Part shown: piece after piece, positions 40,613 to 56,746 of the stretch
Position numbering within the stretch: position 1 is the first letter of the stretch
Layout: each line of letters opens with the position of its first letter
DNA from: Desulfobulbaceae bacterium
GTDB taxonomy: Bacteria; Desulfobacterota; Desulfobulbia; Desulfobulbales; Desulfocapsaceae
Length of the DNA stretch: 64,000 bases
Direction of reading: 5' to 3'
NCBI GenBank assembly: GCA_026988015.1
Contig: JALSMA010000081.1
Span: 1 to 64,000, forward strand
Program-made: the position numbers and the translations under genes
The notes under the pieces: model-generated
Told to the model about the DNA's origin: nothing
The model's database searches: none
The model's input: only the letters and a program-made list of their open reading frames with translations

Positions 40613-41437
40613 CTAGGTATTGGCTGGGGTGCGCAACTTAAACTTCTGTTCGTTTAAAATATTATCAACAGAACGCATATTGCCCTTCATGTAGAAAATA
40701 TTTGGTTTGGTGTCATCAGCAGGGCGTAATACCCAGATTGTTTCTTCAAGTTGATGAACGAGTTTGTAAACAATGTTTTCAGGGTCAGTAAGGTTACCAA
40801 ATGTTCTAGCCCCTGTTGGACAGGCAGACGAGCAACCGGTCTGAGTTTCACCTTTGGATAGTCTTTTCTCCCAGCAGAAGTCACACTTGTCAACGGCACG
40901 TCTGCTTGCACTGAAGTAACGGGCATCATAGGGACAGGCAAGCATACAGGTTTTACAACCAATACACTTTTTACTTTCCATGCGTACAATTCCAGTGACT
41001 GGATCTTTGTAGGTTGCCTTGGTGGGACAGGCTCTCACGCAAGGAGCACTATTGCAGTGGTTACAGAGGACAGGGATGAATTCAACCTGTCTGTCGAGAC
41101 TTCCTGTGTATTTTTTTGTGAGAATTCTTGTCCGGTAGCCATATTCGGGGACATCGTTGGTCTCATTACATTTATCTACACATTTTTCACAGTCTATGCA
41201 GAGGGACTGACGAATAACCATACTGTAGTGGGGGTTATACGGGTATTTCTCGACAAGAGTACCGCCGCCAGAGGCATGAGCTGTACCTACGATTGAAGTA
41301 AGCGACAGGACTTTCCCACCGGCATATACACCGGCAATGGCAAGACCAAGTTTTAGGAATTGACGTCTTTCTTTCGGGGTAACAGATGATGTCCCCTCAT
41401 TCTTCATCTTATCAAAATCTATTTTAGGAAATTTCAT
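40613..41437 (-). CDS. TAT-exported 4Fe-4S ferredoxin-type subunit, module A
   Basis: RRQFLKLGLAIAG twin-arginine signal; CIDCEKCVDKC, CNHCNSAPCVRACP, CIGCKTCMLACP, CDFC...CSSACP. Confidence 0.92.
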   Translation of the reverse strand: MKFPKIDFDKMKNEGTSSVTPKERRQFLKLGLAIAGVYAGGKVLSLTSIVGTAHASGGGTLVEKYPYNPHYSMVIRQSLCIDCEKCVDKCNETNDVPEYGYRTRILTKKYTGSLDRQVEFIPVLCNHCNSAPCVRACPTKATYKDPVTGIVRMESKKCIGCKTCMLACPYDARYFSASRRAVDKCDFCWEKRLSKGETQTGCSSACPTGARTFGNLTDPENIVYKLVHQLEETIWVLRPADDTKPNIFYMKGNMRSVDNILNEQKFKLRTPANT

Positions 41438-41531
41438 GGGATAATTATCCTTTTAAATATTCTTTCTTTTTGGTGCTTTAGTCCTCTTCTCATGAGATAT
41501 GTGAACATGAAAAGAGGAACTTTCGCAATTT

Positions 41532-42839
41532 CTACCAGATTCTATGATGGCGTTTCATAGCCTCTTCTTCAGTTTCACCTTCTTCCATGAAATGGATAGC
41601 GCCACAGCCAGGGCATATATAACCACCCTCTGGAACGATTTCATGTTTTTCAAGTTGGTGGCCATTAAGCATTTTTTCACCGGCAAAATAAGCAAATGCG
41701 ATGAAAGCAATTCCGAAGAGTGATGCCATTATTTCATGGAATGAAGGGGTGTAAGTCAACATTTGAGCCGCCTCTTCAACGCCAAGCGAATGGTAAACGG
41801 ATTCCATTTGTCCTGGTATAACGATGTCGTAACGCATGAAGAAAATTCCGACCATCATAAGGCCTGTTGCCCACATGATAAGATTGAAATTGTTCCCTCT
41901 AGATCGAATTAACAGGTACAGCGGTAAAAACATTCCAAGAAAGATTTCAAAAACCCAGAAGTTAATTGCATAACTTCCGGTAAGGAAAGACATGATAACC
42001 AGTTCTTTTCCTTCTGAGACCATTCCGGTGATAATTTTCCAGATTGTGAAAAAGATAATTACAGAGATAAGGAAAATGGTAATTTGGGTAACAGCTTTAA
42101 CGGCACGTTCCATCCTCTGGTTCATGATTTCAGGATTAATTTTCCAACCAAGAGTAGTAAAGAAAAGAATGGCACAACCACCAGACATGGCGGCAGAAAA
42201 GATAAAATAGATTGGCAGGTAGGGACCATACCAGAATGGACGACCATGGAGCATTCCAAAGACAGCACCAAGATTACTATGTGCTGCGATACCAACAAGA
42301 AGACCAAAAAATCCCATTAGCCGGGACAGAGTATGATTTTGTTCAAGGAGGAAAAAGTATTCAATAACCATGAATACAAGATACAGGCCATACAGCGTTC
42401 CCATCCACCACATATTTGAAACAAAGTTTGGTGAAAGGACATTCCAGATAGCCATGCGGAATGGATTCTCAATATCAAAGAAAATGATACAGAACCCTCC
42501 AAACATGAAGACAATGGACATAAAGACAGCACGTTTGGCTATGGGCATAAATGCTTCACCGCCGAACACATGGCCAATTGAAGAAATGATGCAGAGACCT
42601 GTTGAGGTGACCACACAAAAAATATAGGTAGAAATCAACAGTCCCCATGAAATCTCCCTTGTTACACCGTATACATGATGGTATCCCTTGATCATGCCAT
42701 GGAGCCCGACTGTAACCCCGGCAAGAGCGAGGAGCGCAAATATTCCCATTGTGAATTTGTACATGGGACTTGCATTTTTCAAGGCTTCTACGCCGTGAAA
42801 TCCCCATTTTTTTGAAATGTCGACCATCGTTCTACTCAT
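41532..42839 (-). CDS. NrfD/PsrC-type quinone-interacting membrane subunit, module A
   Basis: 435 aa, multiple TMs, NrfD-like; C-terminal YICPGCGAIHFMEEGETEEEAMKRHHRIW. Confidence 0.88.
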   Translation of the reverse strand: MSRTMVDISKKWGFHGVEALKNASPMYKFTMGIFALLALAGVTVGLHGMIKGYHHVYGVTREISWGLLISTYIFCVVTSTGLCIISSIGHVFGGEAFMPIAKRAVFMSIVFMFGGFCIIFFDIENPFRMAIWNVLSPNFVSNMWWMGTLYGLYLVFMVIEYFFLLEQNHTLSRLMGFFGLLVGIAAHSNLGAVFGMLHGRPFWYGPYLPIYFIFSAAMSGGCAILFFTTLGWKINPEIMNQRMERAVKAVTQITIFLISVIIFFTIWKIITGMVSEGKELVIMSFLTGSYAINFWVFEIFLGMFLPLYLLIRSRGNNFNLIMWATGLMMVGIFFMRYDIVIPGQMESVYHSLGVEEAAQMLTYTPSFHEIMASLFGIAFIAFAYFAGEKMLNGHQLEKHEIVPEGGYICPGCGAIHFMEEGETEEEAMKRHHRIW

Positions 42840-42891
42840 TGTATCTCCCCTTGTGTATAAATAAAATATTACAATTTAATGATTGTAGTTA

Positions 42892-42921
42892 CAGGACCTC
42901 CCCCCTATTTCAGAGGTCCTG
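42892..42921 (-). repeat. Intercistronic stem-loop between cytochrome and NrfD genes of module A
   Basis: CAGGACCTC ... GAGGTCCTG perfect 9-bp stem. Confidence 0.6.
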
Positions 42922-42940
42922 ATGGTATTCACTGATATGA

Positions 42941-43888
42941 TCAGTGTCCTCCCTTTGAGTGACCTGACTCAGCTTTTCCCTCGCCGCCGTCTATTTTGTT
43001 GAAACCCTTCACGCCGATGTGACATACCGTACATTTGGTCAGGTACCCAAACGCCTGTGAAGAGTCATGACAGGTACCGCAGTACTTGTTATGAAGAGAG
43101 ACTAGGTGTTCACGCTTTGCATCAGGGTCTTCAGGTAGAACAGTTTCCTCTTCTTCGACAGCGCCTCGTTTCATCGCAAACACATCTTTATGGCAGGATT
43201 CACATGAAATCTCCTGCTGTACCACGTGAATGTCATGGTCAAAGACAACTGATTTAACAGGTTTGTTAAAAACGATTTTATCAGTTGGAGGGAAATGACA
43301 TGATTCGCACTGGGTTGAGGAATCAAAGGCATCATCACCATTATGGCAGGAACCGCAATACTTGCCTTCCTTAAAAGAAGCCATAGTGAAATCATTATTT
43401 GCAGATGCGGCACCTTTTTTCATAGCAAAAGTGCCAGGATGACAGCTGCTGCATTCAAGTGAAAACTCTTCTACATGGAGATCATGACTGAATGCTGCTT
43501 TGGTTGGTTTTTCCCATATGATGGGTTCTTCTGTAGCACCATGGCATGACATGCAGCTGCTGTCTGTCGAAAATGCAGTATCGCCATCATGGCAGGCACC
43601 ACAGAACTTACCTTCTGCCATGGCTTTCATGGTGAATTTCTTAGAATTAACAGCAGTTCCACGTTGCATGGAAAAAATTTCGTCATGGCAACTGGAACAT
43701 TCTAAGCCTGCATCGGCTGTATGTACTTTATGCTGAAAGGTTGCTTTGATGGGTGTGTTCCAGATAATGTCACTTTTAGGCCCATAAGCCTTAACATCAT
43801 AGTCATCACTGGCAAGGCTGTTACCTGCTAAAAGAAGTGATGTGGAAAAGGCTATAAAACTTGCGGTTAACAAAGGATGTCTGTTCAT
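42941..43888 (-). CDS. Exported multiheme cytochrome c, 9 CXXCH motifs (three triheme c7-like modules), module A
   Basis: Signal peptide; CXXCH at CSSCH, CGACH, CMSCH, CSSCH, CGSCH, CESCH, CESCH, CGTCH, CTVCH. Confidence 0.92.
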   Translation of the reverse strand: MNRHPLLTASFIAFSTSLLLAGNSLASDDYDVKAYGPKSDIIWNTPIKATFQHKVHTADAGLECSSCHDEIFSMQRGTAVNSKKFTMKAMAEGKFCGACHDGDTAFSTDSSCMSCHGATEEPIIWEKPTKAAFSHDLHVEEFSLECSSCHPGTFAMKKGAASANNDFTMASFKEGKYCGSCHNGDDAFDSSTQCESCHFPPTDKIVFNKPVKSVVFDHDIHVVQQEISCESCHKDVFAMKRGAVEEEETVLPEDPDAKREHLVSLHNKYCGTCHDSSQAFGYLTKCTVCHIGVKGFNKIDGGEGKAESGHSKGGH

Positions 43889-44266: not shown

Positions 44267-45172
44267 TTAGATCGTTCTGTTCAGCGCCGCGATTTTTTCA
44301 GCGGCTTCGATAATACCTTGGAGAAGCTTTATTTCTTCATTGCCCATGGCCACTTCTCTGTAGGAATCGTTCAGTAACTGCGCATAATTAATAATACCAT
44401 TGGACAAATTATTGCTTTCATTGATGATAGCACCCAGTTTTTCTGTGAGTTGTTCCGGGTCACACTGTCCTGACGGATTTGTCTGGATCTGTTTAAGTAA
44501 AGAATTGACAGAATCGACGAAAATTGTGATCTCTGTACATGTGGTTTCAGCATAACTAAAGCCGGTTGTGTGAATTTCCGGGTTTTTAGATTGGTCACTC
44601 AACTGCAACAATGGTATTAGGGCCTTTTTGTAAAGAAAGAGTAGGGAAAAGCTGATTATGCAGATTATTCCTCCAAGAGCCCCAATCATAACAGTTTGGA
44701 ATTGGACAACCTTTGAGCGAATTTGACTGACAATAATTCTGTCAAATTGAAGAAGGTACTCTGCGATTTGCCTCATTTTATCTTGTAGAACAAGGCTACT
44801 CGCTATTTTATCAGAATCATGAAGAATCTCTTTGGAGGTTATAGCAAGGTCAGCAATGTCGAGTTGTTTTGCCATGTCAAGCCTGTACTCACCAGGGATC
44901 AGAGTGTTTTCCTGAAGTCTGGCAATGGATGAGTTAAGGTGTTTAAGCTGATCTGAGACAGTTACGACAGAGCTCCAGTCCTGCTTGATGAGAAAGGTGG
45001 TTATCTGTTCCCTTATGGTGGAGAATTGGAAAATGACAGCTTCACTTTGGGTAATCACAACGTTGTATCTTTCGGAAAGTTGATATTGACGGAAACCAAG
45101 GATTATCACTAGGCAAAGAAGTAGCGCTACTCCTATAAATGCAATATAACTGGTCTTTTTTAAAGAGCGCAT
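44267..45172 (-). CDS. Two-TM sensor-like protein ending in a degenerate HisKA-like segment; no ATPase domain
   Basis: Two hydrophobic segments flank a ~130-aa periplasmic region; C-terminus INESNNLSNGIINYAQLLNDSY resembles AHEVNNPITGIINFAQLLLDDS of the kinase at 50357..51505 but ends without HATPase_c. Confidence 0.65.
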   Translation of the reverse strand: MRSLKKTSYIAFIGVALLLCLVIILGFRQYQLSERYNVVITQSEAVIFQFSTIREQITTFLIKQDWSSVVTVSDQLKHLNSSIARLQENTLIPGEYRLDMAKQLDIADLAITSKEILHDSDKIASSLVLQDKMRQIAEYLLQFDRIIVSQIRSKVVQFQTVMIGALGGIICIISFSLLFLYKKALIPLLQLSDQSKNPEIHTTGFSYAETTCTEITIFVDSVNSLLKQIQTNPSGQCDPEQLTEKLGAIINESNNLSNGIINYAQLLNDSYREVAMGNEEIKLLQGIIEAAEKIAALNRTI

Positions 45173-45180
45173 ATCTTGTT

Positions 45181-47052
45181 TTAACCTTTGTTTAATTTGG
45201 AATGGATGCAGCTATCGGCGGCAGGACAGTTTTCGCACTGATTGGTTTCTTTTATGCCTGCTGCAATTTTATCTTTGAATTGACAATTCATTATAATAGT
45301 AAACTCTTCATCATCAATGGTTTCAAATTCAAGCAGGATTGCTGCAAGTTGCTTGAGCAGATAATATTGTTGTTTGAGAACCTCCATGGCTTCCTGACTG
45401 CAAGATTCGAGAAGACTTTTAATCTCTTTATCAACTGCTTCAGATGTTCGGTCACTCATCTCCAGACGCTGTGATGCGGGGCCGAGAAAACCTCCATTGT
45501 CCACTATCATGGCCTGTGGTCCAATGGTGTCACTCATTCCCCATTTGCAGATCATGTTTGTAGCAATTTCTGTTGCTTGGACAATGTCACCCTGAGAACC
45601 AGTGGTACGTTGCTGAAAGGCTATTTCTTCTGCTGCACGACCTGCCATCAAAATAACAATCCTGCTTCTTAAATAATTGAAACTGTAACTGCTTCTATCG
45701 TTTACTGACAGTTGCTGTGTCTGTCCAAGAGCCTGTCCTCGAGGAATGATGGTGATTTTATGAATAGGATCGGCATCAGGAAGGTTCATAGCAGCAATTG
45801 CATGGCCTGCTTCATGAAACGCAAGGACTTTACGATCTTCATCAGAGATGATATGTCCTTTTCGTTCAACACCCATTAAAATTCGATCTCTTGCGAGTTC
45901 AAAATGTTCGTGACAAACAGCCGTCTTACCATCACGGGCAGCCATGAGTGCTGCTTCATTGACAAGATTTGCAAGTTCAGCCCCTGTGAAACCAGGAACC
46001 ATGTGGGCAATTTTATCAAGATCCAAATGAGGTGATAGTGCTACTTTGGCGGTATGAACTTCCAGTATTCTTTTTCTGCCCTTGATATCAGGCGGGAGGA
46101 TATTAACCTGGCGATCAAAACGTCCGGGACGCCGAAGGGCAGGATCTAAAATGTCTGGGCGATTTGTTGCAGCTAGAACAACAATGGTGTCGGTGGAGCT
46201 GAATCCATCCATCTCAACCAGTAGGGCATTTAATGTCTGGCTTCTTTCGTCTTGACCACTGGCAGTGGATCCGCCAGCACGATTTCCACCGACTGCATCA
46301 ATCTCATCAATAAAGATAATACAAGGGGCATTGCCCTGGGCCTCTTTAAAAATATCACGAACTCGGGACGCACCAACTCCTACAAACATCTCAACGAAAT
46401 CAGAACCACTGAATGAATAAAAAGGCACCCGTGCTTCTCCAGCTATGGCCCTGGCAAGGAGCGTTTTACCTGTTCCCGGGGGGCCCTGCAACAAAATTCC
46501 CTTAGGGCTTACTGCACCAATCTCACTATATTGTCCAGGGTTTTTAAGGAAATTGACGATTTCCTGTAGCTCCTCAAGTGCCTCAGGAATTCCAGCGACA
46601 TCGGAGAATGTGACAGTGTTATGATTGCTGTCCGGAAATATTAATTTATCTGAGGCGAATTTGTTTTCCTCATCCTCCTGGCGTTTTTTTCTGCTAAGAG
46701 AGATAATAACAGTTAGAAGAAGAAGGATAATGTAGATGATGGCGATTGCTTGGAATATCTGTTCGGAGCGATCTTTTTTGAATATAATCTGAATATTTTT
46801 GTCCTGAAGCTCAGAGATAAGTTTTTCTGGATTCGGGACAGTGGTTTCATAGCTGTCACCGCCTCTGTGGGTTGCTATGACTTTATTGCCAGTAAAAGTG
46901 GTTGACTCAAGGTCATGATTGGCAAGGCAATATCGAAACTCACTATATGTAACCGTACGCAACTGATGCTCTAGTTTCCATAATCCGTAGCTTCCGCCTA
47001 GGATTACCGTGAAGAGAAAAAAAACGAAGAGGTTACGAATTAATATCGCCAT
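45181..47052 (-). CDS. ftsH: FtsH-family AAA+ zinc metalloprotease (paralogue with Cys-rich C-terminus)
   Basis: [30 protein letters not shown]; unusual tail [18 protein letters not shown]. Confidence 0.9.
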
Positions 47053-47251: not shown

Positions 47252-47404
47252 TGTTCACTAAGGTGCTTAATTATTGTAATAATTTAATAAAGGATCGCAG
47301 GGTCAATGGTAGGTGTAGGCATTAAATGAGACCATAAGAAAAAGTGGATGAGTAAAAAAAATCCAAGATCAACTAACTCTACTGGCATTGTAAGGAGGAA
47401 ATCA

Positions 47405-47442
47405 AAAAAAACCCGGAGGGATCGATCCCCACAGGCTTTTTT
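47405..47442 (-). terminator. Terminator after small membrane protein operon
   Basis: Minus strand AAAAAAAGCCTG..GGGATCGATCCC..CGGGTTTTTTTT; downstream of the stop at 47487. Confidence 0.65.
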
Positions 47443-47486
47443 TGTATTGGTAGTGTGACAGATAATATATGATTCACACTGTTTTA

Positions 47487-47702
47487 TTACATTGTTCCTG
47501 AAATGGCACCCAATAAACTTTTAATTAACGTAACAGGTCCCTCAGATATAAAGGCTGATGAAAGGCAAACGATGGCCCACAGCCCTATGATACCGGCAAA
47601 AGATGCAGTGACTAGTGCACCTACTTTGTACAATTCGCTATCGGTGTGAACTGCTTCGTGAACAGTGGACTGTGAGTTTTGTTTGGTTTCTACGTTGTTC
47701 AT
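47487..47702 (-). CDS. Small membrane protein, paralogue 1 (71 aa)
   Basis: VHEAVHTDSELYKVGALVTASFAGIIGLWAIVCLSSAF...GPVTLIKSLLGAISGTM; close similarity to the 47822 ORF. Confidence 0.85.
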   Translation of the reverse strand: MNNVETKQNSQSTVHEAVHTDSELYKVGALVTASFAGIIGLWAIVCLSSAFISEGPVTLIKSLLGAISGTM

Positions 47703-47821
47703 GGTTTTTTCCTTTTTTAATGAAGAGTGATAGGGCTTTGAAAATTTTAACCGAAAATTATTTTGAACAGGCTGGATATCAGTGAAAATGGGTCATGTGT
47801 ATGGTTATCTCTGGATACTCT

Positions 47822-48046
47822 CTAGGCACCGGTAATTGCATGGTAAAGAGTTTTCAGCATCTCCACAGGGCTGCCATTCTCGAAAACGGCACTGGAAAGA
47901 CAAACAAGCCCCCAGATACCAACAGCGGCCGCAAATGCTGCGGTAGTGTACATCCCGACTTTATAGAGTTCACTGTCAGTGTGTTCAATTTCGTGAACTG
48001 TGGTGTTGCTTTTGTTTGCTTCTTTTGTAGCTGCTTTTTCTTTCAT
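47822..48046 (-). CDS. Small membrane protein, paralogue 2 (74 aa)
   Basis: VHEIEHTDSELYKVGMYTTAAFAAAVGIWGLVCLSSAVFENGSPVEMLKTLYHAITGA. Confidence 0.85.
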   Translation of the reverse strand: MKEKAATKEANKSNTTVHEIEHTDSELYKVGMYTTAAFAAAVGIWGLVCLSSAVFENGSPVEMLKTLYHAITGA

Positions 48047-48087
48047 TAGAGTCTCCTTGGTAGAAAATCACTTTAATTGTTGTATTT

Positions 48088-48300
48088 TCAGCCACCTATG
48101 GCGGTGAACAGGTTTTTTATAAGTTGTCCGGTACCGCCACTACTGGTCATACCCGCAAAAAGACTTGCCGTGGCCCAGCATCCAATAAGACTTGCAATTA
48201 GTGAAATGAAAACAACACTGATCCGTGAAATCTCAATATTACTGTCGATTGTTGCATCTTCATAGCCTTGGGTATTGCGTATTGAATTGGCAGGGGGCAT
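48088..48300 (-). CDS. Small membrane protein, paralogue 3 (70 aa)
   Basis: Start set to ATG 48300 (AGGAGTCCACC-ATG RBS), because the track start 48342 is ~5 nt from the predicted transcription start. IEISRISVVFISLIASLIGCWATASLFAGM...GTGQLIKNLFTAIGG. Confidence 0.8.
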   Translation of the reverse strand: MPPANSIRNTQGYEDATIDSNIEISRISVVFISLIASLIGCWATASLFAGMTSSGGTGQLIKNLFTAIGG

Positions 48301-48356
48301 GGTGGACTCCTGAGTAATATTTACTTGTGTGTTTGGCTGCATTGTTGCTTTGGTCT

Positions 48357-48372
48357 TGCATTTGACGTGCCA
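48357..48372 (-). promoter_or_regulatory. Strong candidate sigma-54 promoter for small membrane protein operon
   Basis: Minus strand TGGCAC-GTCAA-ATGCA: complete -24 TGGCAC and GG-N10-GC spacing. Confidence 0.8.
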
Positions 48373-48499
48373 AAATAAAACGAAAGGGGCAGTAGTTGTG
48401 GTATGGTGGCAGAAGATACGAAAAAACAGCTTGATAGGGATGTTTGGTTCTTTCGTGCTGGAAATGGTACTGATGCAGGGGGGAAGAAATGTGCGGCAA

Positions 48500-48520
48500 A
48501 AGTGTTGCGTTACTGTGGTG
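48500..48520. promoter_or_regulatory. Candidate upstream activator site, copy 1
   Basis: AAGTGTTGCGTTACTGTGGTG, 18/21 identical to 54963..54983; ~130 nt upstream of the sigma-54 promoter. Confidence 0.5.
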
Positions 48521-48552
48521 GTGGGGCGAGGTGCTACGGTTTTGCTACACTG

Positions 48553-50382
48553 TCAAGGGGGGGTGGTGATTTTTGCAATATCGCTGGCTATATTATTACG
48601 TTGCATTCTTCGATAGAGGGTTGATCTGTCAATATTCAACATCCGGGCGGCCTTTGATTTATTACCTCTGGCCCTTTTCAGAATGTCTATTATCTCATCA
48701 CGTTCACTGATATAAGGAGGAAGTGCGGCGAGTGCATTGGAGACAGGGACAGAAAGTGGGGAGAGGTATTGGTTTTGAGGTTGTTGGATTTCATCTGGGA
48801 AGTGATCGAGGGATATGGTTGATCCTTTGCAAAGGATACATGCTCTTTCGATAACATGCCGTAATTCACGAACATTACCAGGCCAGGAGTACTTGGTCAG
48901 GGCCTCCATCGCTTGATCGGAGATACCATGAATATTTCTTCTGAGCTTTTTTCTGAACAGAGAAAGGAAATGATGTACAAGAATTGGAATACCGCCTTTT
49001 CGTTCTCGTAATGGTGGAAGTTTTATCTCCACAACTTTCAATCGGTAATACAAGTCTTCTCTGAAGGACCCTTCCTTAACTTTTTTGGTGAAATCTACAT
49101 TTGTGGCGGCAATTATTCTGACATCTACTTTAACCGGTTGGTCTTGACCAACAGGGGTGAAGGTCTTTTCCTGAAGAAACCTGAGTAGCCGTAACTGCAT
49201 TCGGGGTGAGATGTCTCCAATTTCATCAAGGAATAACGTTCCATTATGGGCAAGGATAAGTCGGCCCTCTCGTGTACGATCAGCTCCCGTGAAGGCACCT
49301 TTGATATGTCCGAAAAGTTCACTTTCTAACAGATCTTCAGGCATGGCTGCACAATCAACTTTAATAAGTGGCATGTCTCTTCTGGGGCTTTCCGCATGAA
49401 GGGCTTCGGCGGCAAGTTCTTTTCCTGTACCGGATTCGCCGGTTACAAGGACTGCCGTGTCTACTTTCCCTACGTTTTCTATAAGATTATACACATTTTG
49501 CATCACTTGACTTGAACCGACATAGCCATGAAACCTATTTCTGGAGTTAGCTCCTATTGTGGGTTCCGGCATGGTGATGTCACGTGCAACCAGAACGACA
49601 CCATTAAATTCGTCCTGTCCATCTTCCAGCGGTGCAGCATTGAGGCTGATAATGCGTAGGTTGCCATCGGGTTTTCTGCATTCGACCTGGTGTTCAAGAA
49701 CTTCCTTCCTTGTTGAAAGTACTTGTCTGGCATCCTCAAGGCATGCTTTTCCCATCTCACTCTGATAGGTTTCCAGTCGCTTAGACCTGTTTGAGTCTGA
49801 TTCCTTGATAAGGAGCCATCTTTTTGCAATTTCATTAAGTTGAACGATATTCATCTTATTGTCTATGGTGATTATTGCATCACGAACAGAGCTGAATATT
49901 GCCTCAAGATATCGTTTGAATTTTTCATTCTCATGTTGAAGGTTTCTCTTTTCATTTTCCAGGTCCCAGTGTTTTAAAGCCTGTCTGACGAATTTTAAAA
50001 GGGTCTCTTTGTTAACAGGTTTGGAGATATAGTCAAAGGCACCGTATCGGACAGCCTCAGCAGCTGAGTCGAGGTTTGGGAAACCGGTTACCATGACTAC
50101 CGGACATTTGATTCCAGATTCTCTTATTTTACAGAGGAGATCGGTTCCTCTTTCACCTTCCAATACAATGTCACTGATTATCAAGTCGAACGAATTACTT
50201 TTTATGGCATCAAGGGCTTCGTCAAGAGTCGAAGCTGTGACAATTGGGCCGTAACCTTCTCTGGCAAGAAACATTTCAAAAGTAAGGCGGATACTTGCTT
50301 CATCATCCACAATAAGAATATGAGTATCTTTTTCCTGTGAAGGTAAGTGTTCCATTTTAAATACCAGAGGTTGGGAGTTCAA
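48553..50382 (-). CDS. NtrC-family response regulator (REC-PAS-AAA+-Fis HTH)
   Basis: ILIVDDEASIRLTFEMFLAREGY, LIISDIVLEGERGTDLL, GESGTGKELAAEALH, HIKGAFTGAD, C-term NKSKAARMLNIDRSTLYRRMQR. Confidence 0.95.
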   Translation of the reverse strand: MNSQPLVFKMEHLPSQEKDTHILIVDDEASIRLTFEMFLAREGYGPIVTASTLDEALDAIKSNSFDLIISDIVLEGERGTDLLCKIRESGIKCPVVMVTGFPNLDSAAEAVRYGAFDYISKPVNKETLLKFVRQALKHWDLENEKRNLQHENEKFKRYLEAIFSSVRDAIITIDNKMNIVQLNEIAKRWLLIKESDSNRSKRLETYQSEMGKACLEDARQVLSTRKEVLEHQVECRKPDGNLRIISLNAAPLEDGQDEFNGVVLVARDITMPEPTIGANSRNRFHGYVGSSQVMQNVYNLIENVGKVDTAVLVTGESGTGKELAAEALHAESPRRDMPLIKVDCAAMPEDLLESELFGHIKGAFTGADRTREGRLILAHNGTLFLDEIGDISPRMQLRLLRFLQEKTFTPVGQDQPVKVDVRIIAATNVDFTKKVKEGSFREDLYYRLKVVEIKLPPLRERKGGIPILVHHFLSLFRKKLRRNIHGISDQAMEALTKYSWPGNVRELRHVIERACILCKGSTISLDHFPDEIQQPQNQYLSPLSVPVSNALAALPPYISERDEIIDILKRARGNKSKAARMLNIDRSTLYRRMQRNNIASDIAKITTPP

Positions 50383-51505
50383 TTATCATCTTAGTGTATT
50401 GATGCATAATGGAGTCAACTTTAATGGTTCCGCCGTGGTCGCTGATTATACCATAGCTTATACTCAAGCCGAGACCAGTTCCTTTTCCAGAGGGTTTGGT
50501 TGTGAAAAAAGGTTCGAATAATCTTTTTAGAATTCCTTGAGGAATTCCAGTACCGGTATCCTTGATTGAGATCCGAATTACTGTTTGGCCTTCTTCTTTG
50601 ATGAATGGGTAGCAGCTTATTTCAATATTTTTCTGAGGTGATGAGTTTGGATAACGGTCGTTGAGTGCAAAACGTGAATTACTGAGTAGATTAAGGATCA
50701 CCTGTTGTAGTTGGTTGTAATTACCGTACACCTGGCAGGATCTTGTGGAATATTCTGTTTTTATTTTTATCCCATCTTTTGTTAGTTGATGAGCAACAAG
50801 AGACAGGCTGTCCTTGATAACTTGACTAATTTCGACAGGTTCATTGCTGTTAACACTTTCCCTTGCAAAGGAAAGAAGGTTTTTGATGATAAGTGCAATT
50901 CGTTCACCTTCGTTGACAATTCTGTCGAGGAGTTCAGCTTGAAGGGAATCTTTTTCAGAATCATCGAGTAATAGTTGGGCAAAGTTGATAATTCCGGTAA
51001 TGGGATTGTTAACTTCATGTGCTACACCGGCAGCAAGCTCACCAATCGCAGCCATTTGAGCAGTTCTGATGGAGTCGGCCTTTCTTACCTCATCACTGGT
51101 AAGCTCCCTTGCGACAAGTAGTATTTTCCGAACCGTGTCATTTGTATCTTTTATCGGTGAGATAGTAAGGAGATATTCGCCGGAAAGGCCGGGGAGTGTA
51201 GTTTCTTCAACCCTAGGTGAGCAGGTTAATAAAAATTCCTCAAGGGGACATTTTATATGTGGCAGACTACCACCATGGATGATGGCACAGATCCCTTTGC
51301 CGATTATGTCAGCCGCTGTTCTTTTGGCAGCTTTCAGTGCGGCATTATTGGCATCAATGATGGTGCCATCAGTAGTTACCACAAGGACAGGATCTTGAAT
51401 AGCTTGGAATAACTCATTTCCGCCACCGGTAATGTGTGAATCTACAAAGGATTGATGCTTTGTTGGGTGCCGGGAATTGGTAATGTTCTTTTTGATATCT
51501 GCCAT
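50357..51505 (-). CDS. Soluble PAS-domain histidine kinase
   Basis: PAS region; AAIGELAAGVAHEVNNPITGIINFAQLL; GTGIPQGILKRLFEPFFTTKPSGKGTGLGLSISYGII. Confidence 0.95.
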   Translation of the reverse strand: MADIKKNITNSRHPTKHQSFVDSHITGGGNELFQAIQDPVLVVTTDGTIIDANNAALKAAKRTAADIIGKGICAIIHGGSLPHIKCPLEEFLLTCSPRVEETTLPGLSGEYLLTISPIKDTNDTVRKILLVARELTSDEVRKADSIRTAQMAAIGELAAGVAHEVNNPITGIINFAQLLLDDSEKDSLQAELLDRIVNEGERIALIIKNLLSFARESVNSNEPVEISQVIKDSLSLVAHQLTKDGIKIKTEYSTRSCQVYGNYNQLQQVILNLLSNSRFALNDRYPNSSPQKNIEISCYPFIKEEGQTVIRISIKDTGTGIPQGILKRLFEPFFTTKPSGKGTGLGLSISYGIISDHGGTIKVDSIMHQYTKMIIELPTSGI

Positions 51506-51985: not shown

Positions 51986-53179
51986 TCAGTGGTGCTCCTT
52001 TTGGGTGAATGTTTTACCAAAAACTCTTTCACCAAGAAGGAAACCAAAACAGACAAGGCTTAAACTTCCTATTACCACGGCAAACTCAAAGAAAGAGGGG
52101 ACATAGTCAAAATATGTTGGGGCATTGTCCCAACCCAGAGTGCCGGGAACCAGCAGGCCACCTGCAATGAGGTTGTAACGGGCCACAAATTGACCGATAA
52201 GGATAAGCAGACCGGCGGTTGCCAACATCCCAGTATTTTTGAGGCGAGAACGAAGTATTAACACAAGGGGAATGATGAGACCGATACAAACTTCAAGTAG
52301 CCAGAAGTTTATGGCCAGAGGTCCGGAAATAAGAGCATCAGCAGCGATACGTCCAAGTTCAGAGCCACCCACAAAATACATTATTAAGCGCCAGAATGTT
52401 GCGACTGAGTATAGTATAAGAACCAGAGTCATTGCTTTACCGGCACTCTTAATTGCATCTTTTACTGACTGGGGCATTTTGTGACCACGAATTTTATAAG
52501 CAAGGTGGTTAATAAGAACTATGGCTGCGGCACCTGAAAGGAATGCTGCTGTAAGAAAATAAATTGGAAGCTGCCCCCCGTACCAATAAGGTCTTGCAGG
52601 GAGTGTCGCGAAAACACCACCAAGACAGCTGTTGGCTAGGACTTCAGCGATGGCTCCGATGGTTCCAAGTATTACGGCTATACGGGCAAGGCCAGTTACT
52701 ATGCCAAAAAATTCGACAATCATACAACCAACGGCCAGTCCGTAAAGAGTTCCCATCCACCAGATATTTGATGCAGGGTTAGGTGAGAGAATGTTATAAA
52801 TAAGCATTCTGTGGGGACTTGCTATTTCTACGCCAATGGTTGCAAATGCACCCAGGATACAGATAATTGACATCCATACCATCCTGTTACTGACAACTGC
52901 CATCTTTGTGCCCCCAAAGATATGTGAGATAGCAGCATAAATACAGAGTCCGGTGGAGGTTATTGCCCAGAAAGCATAAGTGGAAATTAGAAGTCCCCAA
53001 GGGACATCACGGGTATAATTATACATTTTTTCGTGGCCGAAAATGAATGATGCAACGCCACATCCAAGTCCCAGTATAACGATAATTAGAAAAAAGAATG
53101 TAAAGCGGTTCATACGCGGGGTCGCCAAGGAGGGGTCCTCGGTTTGGTTGAATAAGTTTGTTAGAGCGTTGGTTGCCAT
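51986..53179 (-). CDS. NrfD/PsrC-type quinone-interacting membrane subunit, module B
   Basis: Multi-TM; shares MYNYTRDVPWGLLISTYAFWAITSTGLC / ITREISWGLLISTYIFCVVTSTGLC and NIWWMGTLYGL / NMWWMGTLYGL with module A. Confidence 0.88.
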   Translation of the reverse strand: MATNALTNLFNQTEDPSLATPRMNRFTFFFLIIVILGLGCGVASFIFGHEKMYNYTRDVPWGLLISTYAFWAITSTGLCIYAAISHIFGGTKMAVVSNRMVWMSIICILGAFATIGVEIASPHRMLIYNILSPNPASNIWWMGTLYGLAVGCMIVEFFGIVTGLARIAVILGTIGAIAEVLANSCLGGVFATLPARPYWYGGQLPIYFLTAAFLSGAAAIVLINHLAYKIRGHKMPQSVKDAIKSAGKAMTLVLILYSVATFWRLIMYFVGGSELGRIAADALISGPLAINFWLLEVCIGLIIPLVLILRSRLKNTGMLATAGLLILIGQFVARYNLIAGGLLVPGTLGWDNAPTYFDYVPSFFEFAVVIGSLSLVCFGFLLGERVFGKTFTQKEHH

Positions 53180-53267
53180 GGTGATCTCCTGAACTAATAA
53201 TTATCAGGCCTGGGCCTGGATATCGCGAGCGGTTGCTGGTATGAAGATATGTGTGGTATCTTTCTGA

Positions 53268-53945
53268 TTAATGGCCACTTTTTTCTTTGTTATTCTCTTG
53301 AGAATGTGAGGCATTTCCCATCAATCTGTTATAACCTTTCTTTCCAATGTGGCAGGTGTTGCAAAGAGTATTAGATGCAAAAGCTGTTTCTCCGTCGTGA
53401 CATTTTCCACAGTACTGGCCTTTGTAGAGGGATTTCATGGTAAAGAATGGTGACTGTTCGGCAGTGCCGCTTTTCATTGCAAATACTTCATTATGGCAGG
53501 AATCACATTCGAGACCGTATTCATCAGTATGGAGCTGATGATGAAAAACAACAGCCTTAACTGGTTTGGACCATACAATGCGTTCTTCTGGAGGTGTATG
53601 GCATCCGGCACAATTGGTGTCTGAAGCAAACGCAGTATCACCATCGTGACACATTCCGCAATATTTCCCTTCAGCAAGTGATGTCATTGTGAGTTTGCCT
53701 GATCGCATAGCAACTCCACGCTGCATTGCAAAGGGTTCACCATGGCAGGAGCTGCACTCAAGTCCGGCATCTTCTGTGTGTACTCTATGACTGAATTCAA
53801 CCTTTACAGGTGTGTCCCAGATGATTGGGTTTTTTGGCCCAAAGGCTTGGACATCATACTCGTTGGTAGCGTAACCATTGTTGACTGCGAGCGATGTCAC
53901 AGAGATGAAAGTGGCTACACAAGTTATAATAAATCTATTGTTCAT
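53268..53945 (-). CDS. Exported multiheme cytochrome c, 6 CXXCH motifs (two triheme modules), module B
   Basis: Start MNNRFIITCVATF at 53945; CSSCH, CGMCH, CAGCH, CDSCH, CGKCH, CNTCH; strong similarity to 42941..43888. Confidence 0.92.
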   Translation of the reverse strand: MNNRFIITCVATFISVTSLAVNNGYATNEYDVQAFGPKNPIIWDTPVKVEFSHRVHTEDAGLECSSCHGEPFAMQRGVAMRSGKLTMTSLAEGKYCGMCHDGDTAFASDTNCAGCHTPPEERIVWSKPVKAVVFHHQLHTDEYGLECDSCHNEVFAMKSGTAEQSPFFTMKSLYKGQYCGKCHDGETAFASNTLCNTCHIGKKGYNRLMGNASHSQENNKEKSGH

Positions 53946-54046
53946 GTCTGATATTCTCCCGGAAAATTCACATAATACAGTATACAGGTAATTATTGGAG
54001 CCCTGCAACAGGGTAAGGGGTTCTATAAATGACTCATCCACAGATC

Positions 54047-54811
54047 TTACGCGTTCATGTAGAAAACATTCGGTAATGCACCGCATTCTGGACGAATAAC
54101 CCAAATTTTGTTGTCAGGTTCATGCAGTAAACGGTATATCTCGGTAGAAGGGTCTTTGATGTCACCAAAAACACGAACATTCGCGGGACAGGCTGCAGCA
54201 CAAGCTGTTTCCTTTTCACCTTCAGCAAGACGGGTATCAAGGCAAAAGTTGCATTTGTCGATTGCATATCGGTCGTGGTTGAAGTATCGGGCATTGTACG
54301 GGCATGCTGCCATGCAGGTCTTACAACCAATGCATTTTTTGTAATCCATCACAACAATGCCGGTTTCCGGGTCTTTGTAGGTAGCTTTTGTGGGGCATAC
54401 TCGGACACAAGGAGGGCGATTACAGTGGTTGCAGAGTATTGGACGAAATTCCCTTTTTTCGATACCTTCAACAGTTGTAAGCCTCTCTTGTATTGTTGTT
54501 CTCCATGCATCGTGACCAGTTGGGACATGATTGGTGGCCCTGCAGGCGTCGAGGCATTTTTCACAATCGATACAGTTGTTTTGGCGCATAATCATTCCAT
54601 AGTGTTTATTGTATGGATATTGACCAGCAGCGGGTATGACGGAAACGGTATTAACACACAGAGCTTTTTGTGCTGATGTGAGTGAAAGTACAGTCCCACC
54701 TAGAAAGACTCCCGTGACTGTAAGGCCCATTTTTAGGAATTTTCGCCGTTCTTCTGATGGCAGGGTATCAATCCCTTCATTCTTTTCCTTCTCGAGAGCT
54801 TTTATATCCAT
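54047..54811 (-). CDS. TAT-exported 4Fe-4S ferredoxin-type subunit, module B
   Basis: RRKFLKMGLTVTG; CIDCEKCLDAC, CNHCNRPPCVRVCP, CIGCKTCMAACP, CNFC...CAAACP. Confidence 0.92.
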   Translation of the reverse strand: MDIKALEKEKNEGIDTLPSEERRKFLKMGLTVTGVFLGGTVLSLTSAQKALCVNTVSVIPAAGQYPYNKHYGMIMRQNNCIDCEKCLDACRATNHVPTGHDAWRTTIQERLTTVEGIEKREFRPILCNHCNRPPCVRVCPTKATYKDPETGIVVMDYKKCIGCKTCMAACPYNARYFNHDRYAIDKCNFCLDTRLAEGEKETACAAACPANVRVFGDIKDPSTEIYRLLHEPDNKIWVIRPECGALPNVFYMNA

Positions 54812-55282: not shown

Positions 55283-56746
55283 GTGTTCATGTCAAGTTTT
55301 AAAAATTGTGTAAAACTGCCTTTTTTGTTTCTCCTACTGTTTCCTTCAACAGGTGTTACAGAGCAACTCTCGACTTCTACTGCGCTACAAAATAATATTA
55401 CAATTCTGTCCGAATCCAAGAGCTGTCAGGGCTGTGATTTGAGGGGAGCTGTATTGAATAGACTTGATTTATCCGATGCAAACCTTGAGGGTGCCAAATT
55501 AAGTCGTGCTAAAATGTCCCTTACCAACCTGTCAGGTGCAAATCTTCGCAATGCTGACTTACGCGAGGTTGTTTTTAATGGTGCGGATTTGGCAAATGCG
55601 GATCTTCGTGGTGCAGATTTAACAGGTGCCTCTCTCGTCGGAGCATACCTGTCAGGGGCACTCATGGATGGGGAAATGATTACCACTAATCCATATGACC
55701 AAGAGGGGATAGAGAACTTTTCAGAAACTGTTTATGTCGAGGATACGGTCTCCTCGAAAGCTCCCCCTGTTTCTGAGGAAATCATTATAGAAAACAGGCG
55801 TGACTTTGAGGAGACTCCTCCTGTCATCCAGGTGAGTCCGGAGGCTACAACAATCACTGAGTCATCCCAGGGGGAAAATTCAACTCAGGAAGTCAGTGAT
55901 GGTTATGATACCACCGTGTTGCCAAAACAGAGTGCTACGGCACCTGATGTTAAGAGAAATCCTGCAATACAAAATGTAACGATAGCCGAGGAAGTTCAGG
56001 TGACAAATACCAGATCTTCCGGGGGGACACCAGATTCTGAAGAAGTAATGGCCACTGAATCAGAAGTTCAGGTAACAATCAGCAACAAAGCTGATTCATC
56101 TGAAAAAGCGGTTACCGATACTTTTAATGCTACTATTGGTTCAAACATGGCAGAATCCCAAGGTGCATCACCTGACAAAGGAAATATAGAACCAGATACC
56201 TTTGTTTCTGGGGTTGATGTCTCCTCAGATAGCCTGTCTGATGCTAATACAGATGACACAGAAGTGGCGATTGCTTACACAATTGAAGATGGGGCTCCTG
56301 CAGAAGAAAAAGATGCGGAAACAAGTGATACTGCTCAGGTAGCAGACAGTGTCATTGATAGTATTTTTAACGTATTTTCAACTGTTGGCCCGACAACTCT
56401 TATTGATGATAACATTGCTGTTCTTCTTGACACTAACAAATGTTATGGATGTAATCTCTCGGGAGCTGATCTCAGTGGAAAAGATCTGGAAGATGCTGAT
56501 CTCGAGAGTGCCGATCTTTCCTGGGCAAAACTATCCAATGCGGATTTGCAGAACGCTAATCTGAAAAACGCAAATCTTTCTGGAGCAGATCTTACAGGTG
56601 CAGATTTATCAGAAGCAGATTTGTATAAAGCGGTTGTTGAAGGTATGGATTTAACAGACGCAACTCTAGAGAATACTCTGCTTGATGATGTAGACTTAAC
56701 TTCCGTCAAAGGATATAAAACCCAGGCAATAATATTGATGCAGTAG
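55283..56746 (+). CDS. Exported protein with two pentapeptide-repeat domains joined by an acidic linker
   Basis: Signal-like N-terminus; CQGCDLRGAVLNRLDLSDANLEGAKL... and CYGCNLSGADLSGKDLEDADLESADL... Confidence 0.85.
   Translation: MFMSSFKNCVKLPFLFLLLFPSTGVTEQLSTSTALQNNITILSESKSCQGCDLRGAVLNRLDLSDANLEGAKLSRAKMSLTNLSGANLRNADLREVVFNGADLANADLRGADLTGASLVGAYLSGALMDGEMITTNPYDQEGIENFSETVYVEDTVSSKAPPVSEEIIIENRRDFEETPPVIQVSPEATTITESSQGENSTQEVSDGYDTTVLPKQSATAPDVKRNPAIQNVTIAEEVQVTNTRSSGGTPDSEEVMATESEVQVTISNKADSSEKAVTDTFNATIGSNMAESQGASPDKGNIEPDTFVSGVDVSSDSLSDANTDDTEVAIAYTIEDGAPAEEKDAETSDTAQVADSVIDSIFNVFSTVGPTTLIDDNIAVLLDTNKCYGCNLSGADLSGKDLEDADLESADLSWAKLSNADLQNANLKNANLSGADLTGADLSEADLYKAVVEGMDLTDATLENTLLDDVDLTSVKGYKTQAIILMQ

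Follow-up and report, generated by a model that had tools for sequence, protein, structure and literature searches.

The window, a stretch of 64,000 nucleotides from a Desulfobulbaceae genome, carries on its minus strand an array of three consecutive small genes, called here P3, P2 and P1 in the order of transcription. The array is placed between the gene of a sigma-54-activating response regulator and that of an accessory FtsH protease, with a histidine kinase and a NarQ-like membrane sensor on the outer sides of these two (Table 1). The regulator/small gene/FtsH block is flanked in turn by two sets of iron-sulfur protein, NrfD-type membrane subunit and c7-type cytochrome (40613-43888 and 51986-54811), the second set being found elsewhere, or not seen nearby, in some relatives.

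Table 1. Genes and sequence features at the locus, in window coordinates.
Feature	Position	Strand	Remarks
4Fe-4S protein, downstream redox set	40613..41437	(-)	
NrfD-type membrane subunit, downstream redox set	41532..42839	(-)	
c7-type triheme-repeat cytochrome, downstream redox set	42941..43888	(-)	
NarQ-like membrane sensor, Asn in place of the phospho-His, without ATPase domain	44267..45172	(-)	downstream, after FtsH
Accessory FtsH (AAA + M41 peptidase)	45181..47052	(-)	downstream of array
Intrinsic terminator	47403..47444	(-)	after P1, before FtsH
P1, 71-aa single-pass membrane protein	47487..47702	(-)	
P2, 74-aa single-pass membrane protein	47822..48046	(-)	
P3, 70-aa single-pass membrane protein	48088..48300	(-)	first array gene; start by AGGAG ribosome site
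Predicted sigma-54 -24/-12 promoter, TGGCACGTCAAATGCA	48357..48372	(-)	from sequence; 56 bp before P3; kept before 81% of arrays
Probable response-regulator binding region (CGCAACAC and similar words)	48490..48550	(-)	from enrichment across arrays
Sigma-54-activating response regulator (receiver, PAS, AAA, Fis-type HTH)	48553..50382	(-)	upstream of array
PAS histidine kinase without membrane domain	50357..51505	(-)	upstream of array
NrfD-type membrane subunit, upstream redox set	51986..53179	(-)	
c7-type cytochrome, upstream redox set	53268..54104	(-)	listed TTG start probably too early
4Fe-4S protein, upstream redox set	54047..54811	(-)	

The small proteins and their family

The three reading frames of about 70 codons described in the first-pass annotation are present on the minus strand, the motifs it quoted can be read letter for letter (VHEAVHTDSELYKVG and VHEIEHTDSELYKVG, IGLWAIVCLSSA and VGIWGLVCLSSA, and LIKNLFTAIGG), and it was correct in assigning one membrane helix to each protein. 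The mechanical reading frame of P3 spans 48088-48342, with an alternative start at the ATG at 48300 (70 aa), which was also the end coordinate of the annotation. The latter is the likelier start, since it is preceded by an AGGAG ribosome site and its distance from the promoter fits, whereas, if transcription starts where the sigma-54 promoter implies, the ATG at 48342 would be only ~4 nt away from that point and is less likely for this reason.

The paralogy proposed for the three proteins is borne out by shuffle controls, with Z scores of 32 overall and 11.6 locally for P1 and P2, 10.1 and 6.5 for P1 and P3, and 10.1 and 7.6 for P2 and P3. For every pair the real score was unmatched by any of 500 shuffles, including those within 8-residue blocks, which keep the hydropathy pattern; by sequence comparison P1, P2 and P3 are homologous beyond chance. 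Moreover, when each is compared with its nearest orthologue in a genome of the same genus, dN/dS is ~0.09 for P1, ~0.09 for P2 and ~0.23 for P3, a level of purifying selection from which the three can be taken as real genes. An AlphaFold2 monomer model of modest confidence (pLDDT 68) places a long helix at residues 16-57 and a second one at 60-72, following a disordered N-terminal tail.

As the annotation had anticipated, the proteins are claimed by no curated family in Pfam, NCBIfam, PHROGs, PADLOC or the PDB, and no description of the module was found among the papers searched; weak matches to Pox_TAP, DUF2105 and CDK4/6 were isolated and taken as chance. With a profile of the five members encoded in the own genome, 129 of the 196 genomes sampled from this Desulfobulbales-like order were found to hold relatives, at up to 15 copies each, and narrow and broad profiles recovered them outside the order in only 11 genomes of a 396-genome phylum sample. 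The five own-genome members occupy two loci, both between a response regulator and an FtsH; the second (L006, contig 1 of G000) holds two of them in a matching gene order of kinase, regulator, two small genes, FtsH, sensor, cytochrome, iron-sulfur protein and NrfD. Named relatives carrying the module, found via the conserved NrfD, are mostly Desulfocapsa, Desulforhopalus, Desulfopila and other Desulfobulbaceae/Desulfocapsaceae, which suggests a Desulfocapsa-like origin for the window; since the relatives were retrieved through NrfD, these loci are biased towards it and were excluded from the neighbour counts given below.

Across 161 sequences the family pattern consists of a polar N-terminal tail, E-L/I-x-K, a hydrophobic helix with G-x-W, a G-G-P turn and, at the end of a short helix, x-A-I/V-x-G. 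The Gly and Trp of the helix motif are conserved in 96% and 99% of these sequences, respectively, a Cys follows four residues past the Trp in 76%, and hydrophobicity peaks at about residues 32-50 (median). The first-pass annotation had read the triplication as a sign of a hetero-oligomer or of stoichiometric subunits. This is unsupported: related loci hold from 1 to 6 copies with the module otherwise unchanged, so that the triplet reflects no conserved ratio, and a fixed stoichiometry was rejected.

Predicted transcriptional control and sensing

Of 73 arrays, 81% have a sigma-54 site ahead of their first small gene; the corresponding share is 8% for inner array genes and 5-6% for other genes, and lone copies, too, have such a site upstream. 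Upstream of the promoter, GCAACAC/GTGTTGC repeats are enriched: of the 35 arrays whose regulator is of the type seen in the window, 63% have two or more and 89% have one or more, the corresponding figures for 466 other genes being 0% and 8%. It is these repeated words that carry the signal, no palindrome considered as an activator site being widely shared. Within the array the intergenic gaps measure 41 and 119 bp, and the hairpin after P1 has a folding energy of -22.9 kcal/mol (z = -4.6) with a T run; a terminator-type hairpin was found in 32 of the 47 array-FtsH gaps of the collection.

Because of the conserved sigma-54 promoter, the upstream repeats and the terminator, P3-P2-P1 looks like a self-contained inducible unit, and the operon organization claimed earlier gains support from the promoter before P3, the short gaps and the terminator after P1. 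The elements of a sigma-54-dependent two-component target can all be recognised in sequence: a -24/-12 promoter, upstream activator sites, a linked activator and sigma-54 itself, encoded in the own genome. The array appears to be switched on by the sensor-regulator pair through the sigma-54 promoter, a regulatory circuit which is well supported at the level of sequence. With high confidence, P1-P3 can be assigned to a large unnamed family of ~70-aa single-pass membrane proteins under sigma-54/two-component control.

The own genome contains 22 TGGCACG-N6-GC sites, versus 6 for a reversed-pattern control. Those beyond the two arrays precede varied genes, including a pilin-like gene and a TSUP-like transporter (both recognised by eye), and almost all of them are without GCAACA/TGTTGC words upstream; a wider regulon of the linked regulator in this genome was undefinable.

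As regards the signal, the PAS domain of the linked kinase contains four residues (Cys73, His77, His83 and Cys86) which are invariant in 34 of 34 sequences, and this Cys/His set suggests a metal or redox site. The membrane co-sensor encoded after FtsH has no match in Pfam. In its model (pLDDT 82) two membrane helices are combined with a helix bundle on the periplasmic side and with a helical hairpin, a predicted architecture like that of the nitrate-nitrite sensor kinases NarQ and NarX, and its top five PDB matches are all NarQ fragments, with weak E values of 0.02-0.08. The hairpin reads N-E-x-x-N-x-x-x-G-I-I-N-Y-x-Q-L-L, to be compared with H-E-V-N-N-P-I-T-G-I-I-N-F-A-Q-L-L in the linked kinase. 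The co-sensor differs from NarQ/NarX in having Asn at the phospho-His position, in 30 of 30 sequences, and in lacking the ATPase domain, and would thus depend on the linked PAS kinase for signalling.

Protease and redox neighbours

Neighbours were counted for 33 arrays from whole genomes with at least 3 kb of flank on each side. FtsH was found near 23 of them and a double-AAA M41 protease near 2; the other neighbours were the regulator (22), the kinase and the sensor (17 each), NrfD (16) and a NapC-like cytochrome (8). The pairing with NrfD suggested in the first-pass annotation is thus supported only in part, by those 16 arrays; more of the 33 have an FtsH or other M41 protease close by (25) or a response regulator (22). 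Of all partners of the family FtsH is the most constant, a linkage which is well supported by gene order; in a distant phylum member (L147) the recognised unit is small-small-FtsH alone, without a recognised NrfD. The 816-870-aa proteins found near arrays in place of FtsH (L061:3589-6201 and L142:9437-11887) combine two AAA domains with an M41 peptidase domain, which is an unusual protease architecture.

The association extends to gene number. Among genomes at least 90% complete, those with the family have a mean of 4.0 M41 (FtsH-type) genes, versus 1.4 in those without, and two or more such genes are present in 94 of 96 versus 14 of 48. Family size and M41 gene number are correlated with a Spearman coefficient of 0.75, shared ancestry being ignored in this value. 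In a tree with six housekeeping FtsH sequences, that of the own genome excluded, the module-linked FtsH split from the housekeeping ones with 100/100 support. The accessory FtsH proteins of the own genome (45181-47052 and L006:10678-12543) have a C-terminal Cys motif, C-x2-C-x6-C; a motif of this kind is shared by 40 of the 63 module FtsH, is absent from all six housekeeping FtsH and is possibly a metal or redox switch.

The downstream NrfD (41532-42839) is 85-92% identical between genera, which is unusually high for such a protein, and its C-terminal tail resembles a zinc ribbon or rubredoxin (YICPGCGAIHF).

A second type of relative, of ~101 aa, consists of a first half like the small proteins and a second half weakly like HmcD (NCBIfam NF045712; best E=5e-4 and 20 bits, the family cut-off being 34), while P1-P3 themselves have no match to that model. 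Relatives of these proteins occur in 100 of 196 genomes. They occupy the regulator-FtsH slot in L153, L248 and L249, and in L234, L236, L243 and L244 their genes alternate with small genes beside operons of FtsH, cytochrome, iron-sulfur protein, a 417-aa protein and sensor, where the cytochrome is of the five-haem type and the 417-aa gene stands at the NrfD position. The small profile matches the ~101-aa proteins modestly (E ~3e-6 against a small set), and a shared ancestry of the two groups is likely rather than certain. Pairs of small and HmcD-like genes have weaker, similarly placed sigma-54 sites, 52% of which are over the same threshold and most others just below; in L243:8312-11540 three such pairs follow one another, each with its own sigma-54-like site.

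Proposed role and alternatives

The gene neighbourhood, taken alone, fits an adaptor, an FtsH substrate or a redox-complex subunit alike. A reading as partner or client of FtsH is favoured because the FtsH link is the most constant feature: P1-P3 would be produced by a signal-controlled sigma-54 unit and would act with, or be turned over by, the accessory FtsH in redox or envelope stress. To this explanation, considered as a whole chain including the FtsH step, we give about an even chance; the FtsH mechanism itself is what we infer. The PAS histidine kinase, probably together with the NarQ-like co-sensor, would detect a redox or electron-acceptor signal, whereupon the response regulator, to judge from the conserved sites, would bind the GCAACAC-type repeats and activate the promoter. 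P3, P2 and P1 would then be made from a short terminator-bounded transcript and are predicted to insert in the inner membrane, each having one helix that follows a flexible polar N-tail and leads, through a Gly-rich turn, into a second, short helix. There they might serve as adaptors through which redox complexes or other membrane clients reach the adjacent accessory FtsH or, alternatively, as short-lived protectors which FtsH would clear once the signal ends.

A comparable case is MgtR of Salmonella, a protein of 30 aa encoded in the mgtCBR operon, which is reported to promote the degradation of MgtC by FtsH (PMC6813294). The likeness is that of a tiny membrane protein tied to membrane proteolysis, in the case of P1-P3 by genetic linkage, gene-number correlation and FtsH grouping; here arrays of ~70-aa proteins stand beside a dedicated FtsH. 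Against the FtsH reading, the arrays L056, L140, L141 and L144 lie near no recognised partner, so that an FtsH acting in trans must be assumed for them, and the terminator between array and FtsH means that co-expression of the two is not a given.

Among the alternatives, P1-P3 could be accessory membrane subunits of the neighbouring NrfD/iron-sulfur/cytochrome complexes, with paralogues for different complexes or conditions, in the manner of HmcD, the small membrane protein beside the NrfD-type Hmc complex of sulfate reducers. The presence of NrfD near almost half of the counted arrays and its identity across genera speak for this, as do the ~101-aa relatives, whose second half weakly resembles HmcD (below the cut-off) and which share the gene slot (L153) or alternate with the small genes. 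Nevertheless, P1-P3 are without the HmcD part, are multicopy (1-6 copies beside the same complex) and keep the company of FtsH, which is the steadier neighbour and is retained in L147 without a recognised NrfD; recognised redox genes are far away from lone copies that have a sigma-54 promoter of their own (L056, L144), and such a promoter together with a terminator would be odd for a structural subunit. We regard this, the main alternative, as unlikely, if worth serious consideration. In the phage shock (Psp) response (PspF / sigma-54 / PspB-PspC), small inner-membrane proteins are driven by sigma-54, and P1-P3, likewise small membrane proteins predicted from the conserved -24/-12 site to be under sigma-54, might be envelope-stress proteins of that kind, stabilising the membrane or limiting proton leak independently of an FtsH that merely shares the stress locus. 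Their tandem arrangement fits, as do the scattered lone copies under a similar promoter, one of them beside a catalase and a kinase-regulator pair (L145:3620-5604). The differences are a two-component system in place of PspF, FtsH and redox genes in the locus, and sequence itself, since neither P1-P3 nor 34 diverse family members match the PspB/PspC models or any other Psp family in Pfam or NCBIfam; by itself, this alternative also leaves the rise of FtsH gene number with family size unexplained, and it is judged a little more doubtful still.

A role as small regulators of the sensors, by membrane-helix feedback on the histidine kinase or the NarQ-like co-sensor, is suggested by the position of the genes beside both and by their apparent expression from a promoter under the control of the kinase's partner. 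Up to 15 copies per genome, many of them without a nearby co-sensor, are nevertheless more than feedback needs, and this role seems improbable. Finally, size and one hydrophobic helix, and nothing else, would suit holin-like or toxin-like pore peptides; the strong purifying selection, the conserved chromosomal loci, the lack of any match to Pfam (holins included), PHROG or PADLOC families, and neighbours which are regulatory and redox genes, with no lysis or antitoxin gene recognised among them, make such an activity very improbable.

For an unannotated family present in about two thirds of the sampled genomes of an environmentally important order, these results supply a regulatory circuit along with a likely partner. 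They also offer a possible reason why genomes with the family have about four FtsH-type genes where relatives without it mostly have one, and a general question becomes testable, namely whether accessory FtsH proteases gain specificity via dedicated small membrane partners. The module points to an undescribed membrane-maintenance system. In a more speculative version, which we hold only tentatively and consider on balance doubtful, redox-type sensing by a PAS kinase and a NarQ-like protein without phospho-His would drive, through sigma-54, the production of interchangeable small membrane adaptors that choose the clients of an expanded, dedicated FtsH set, remodelling NrfD-type complexes when the electron acceptor changes, largely within one sulfur-cycling order.

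Elsewhere in the window, positions 55283-56746 encode a 487-aa secreted-looking protein with two pentapeptide-type repeat blocks around a low-complexity middle.
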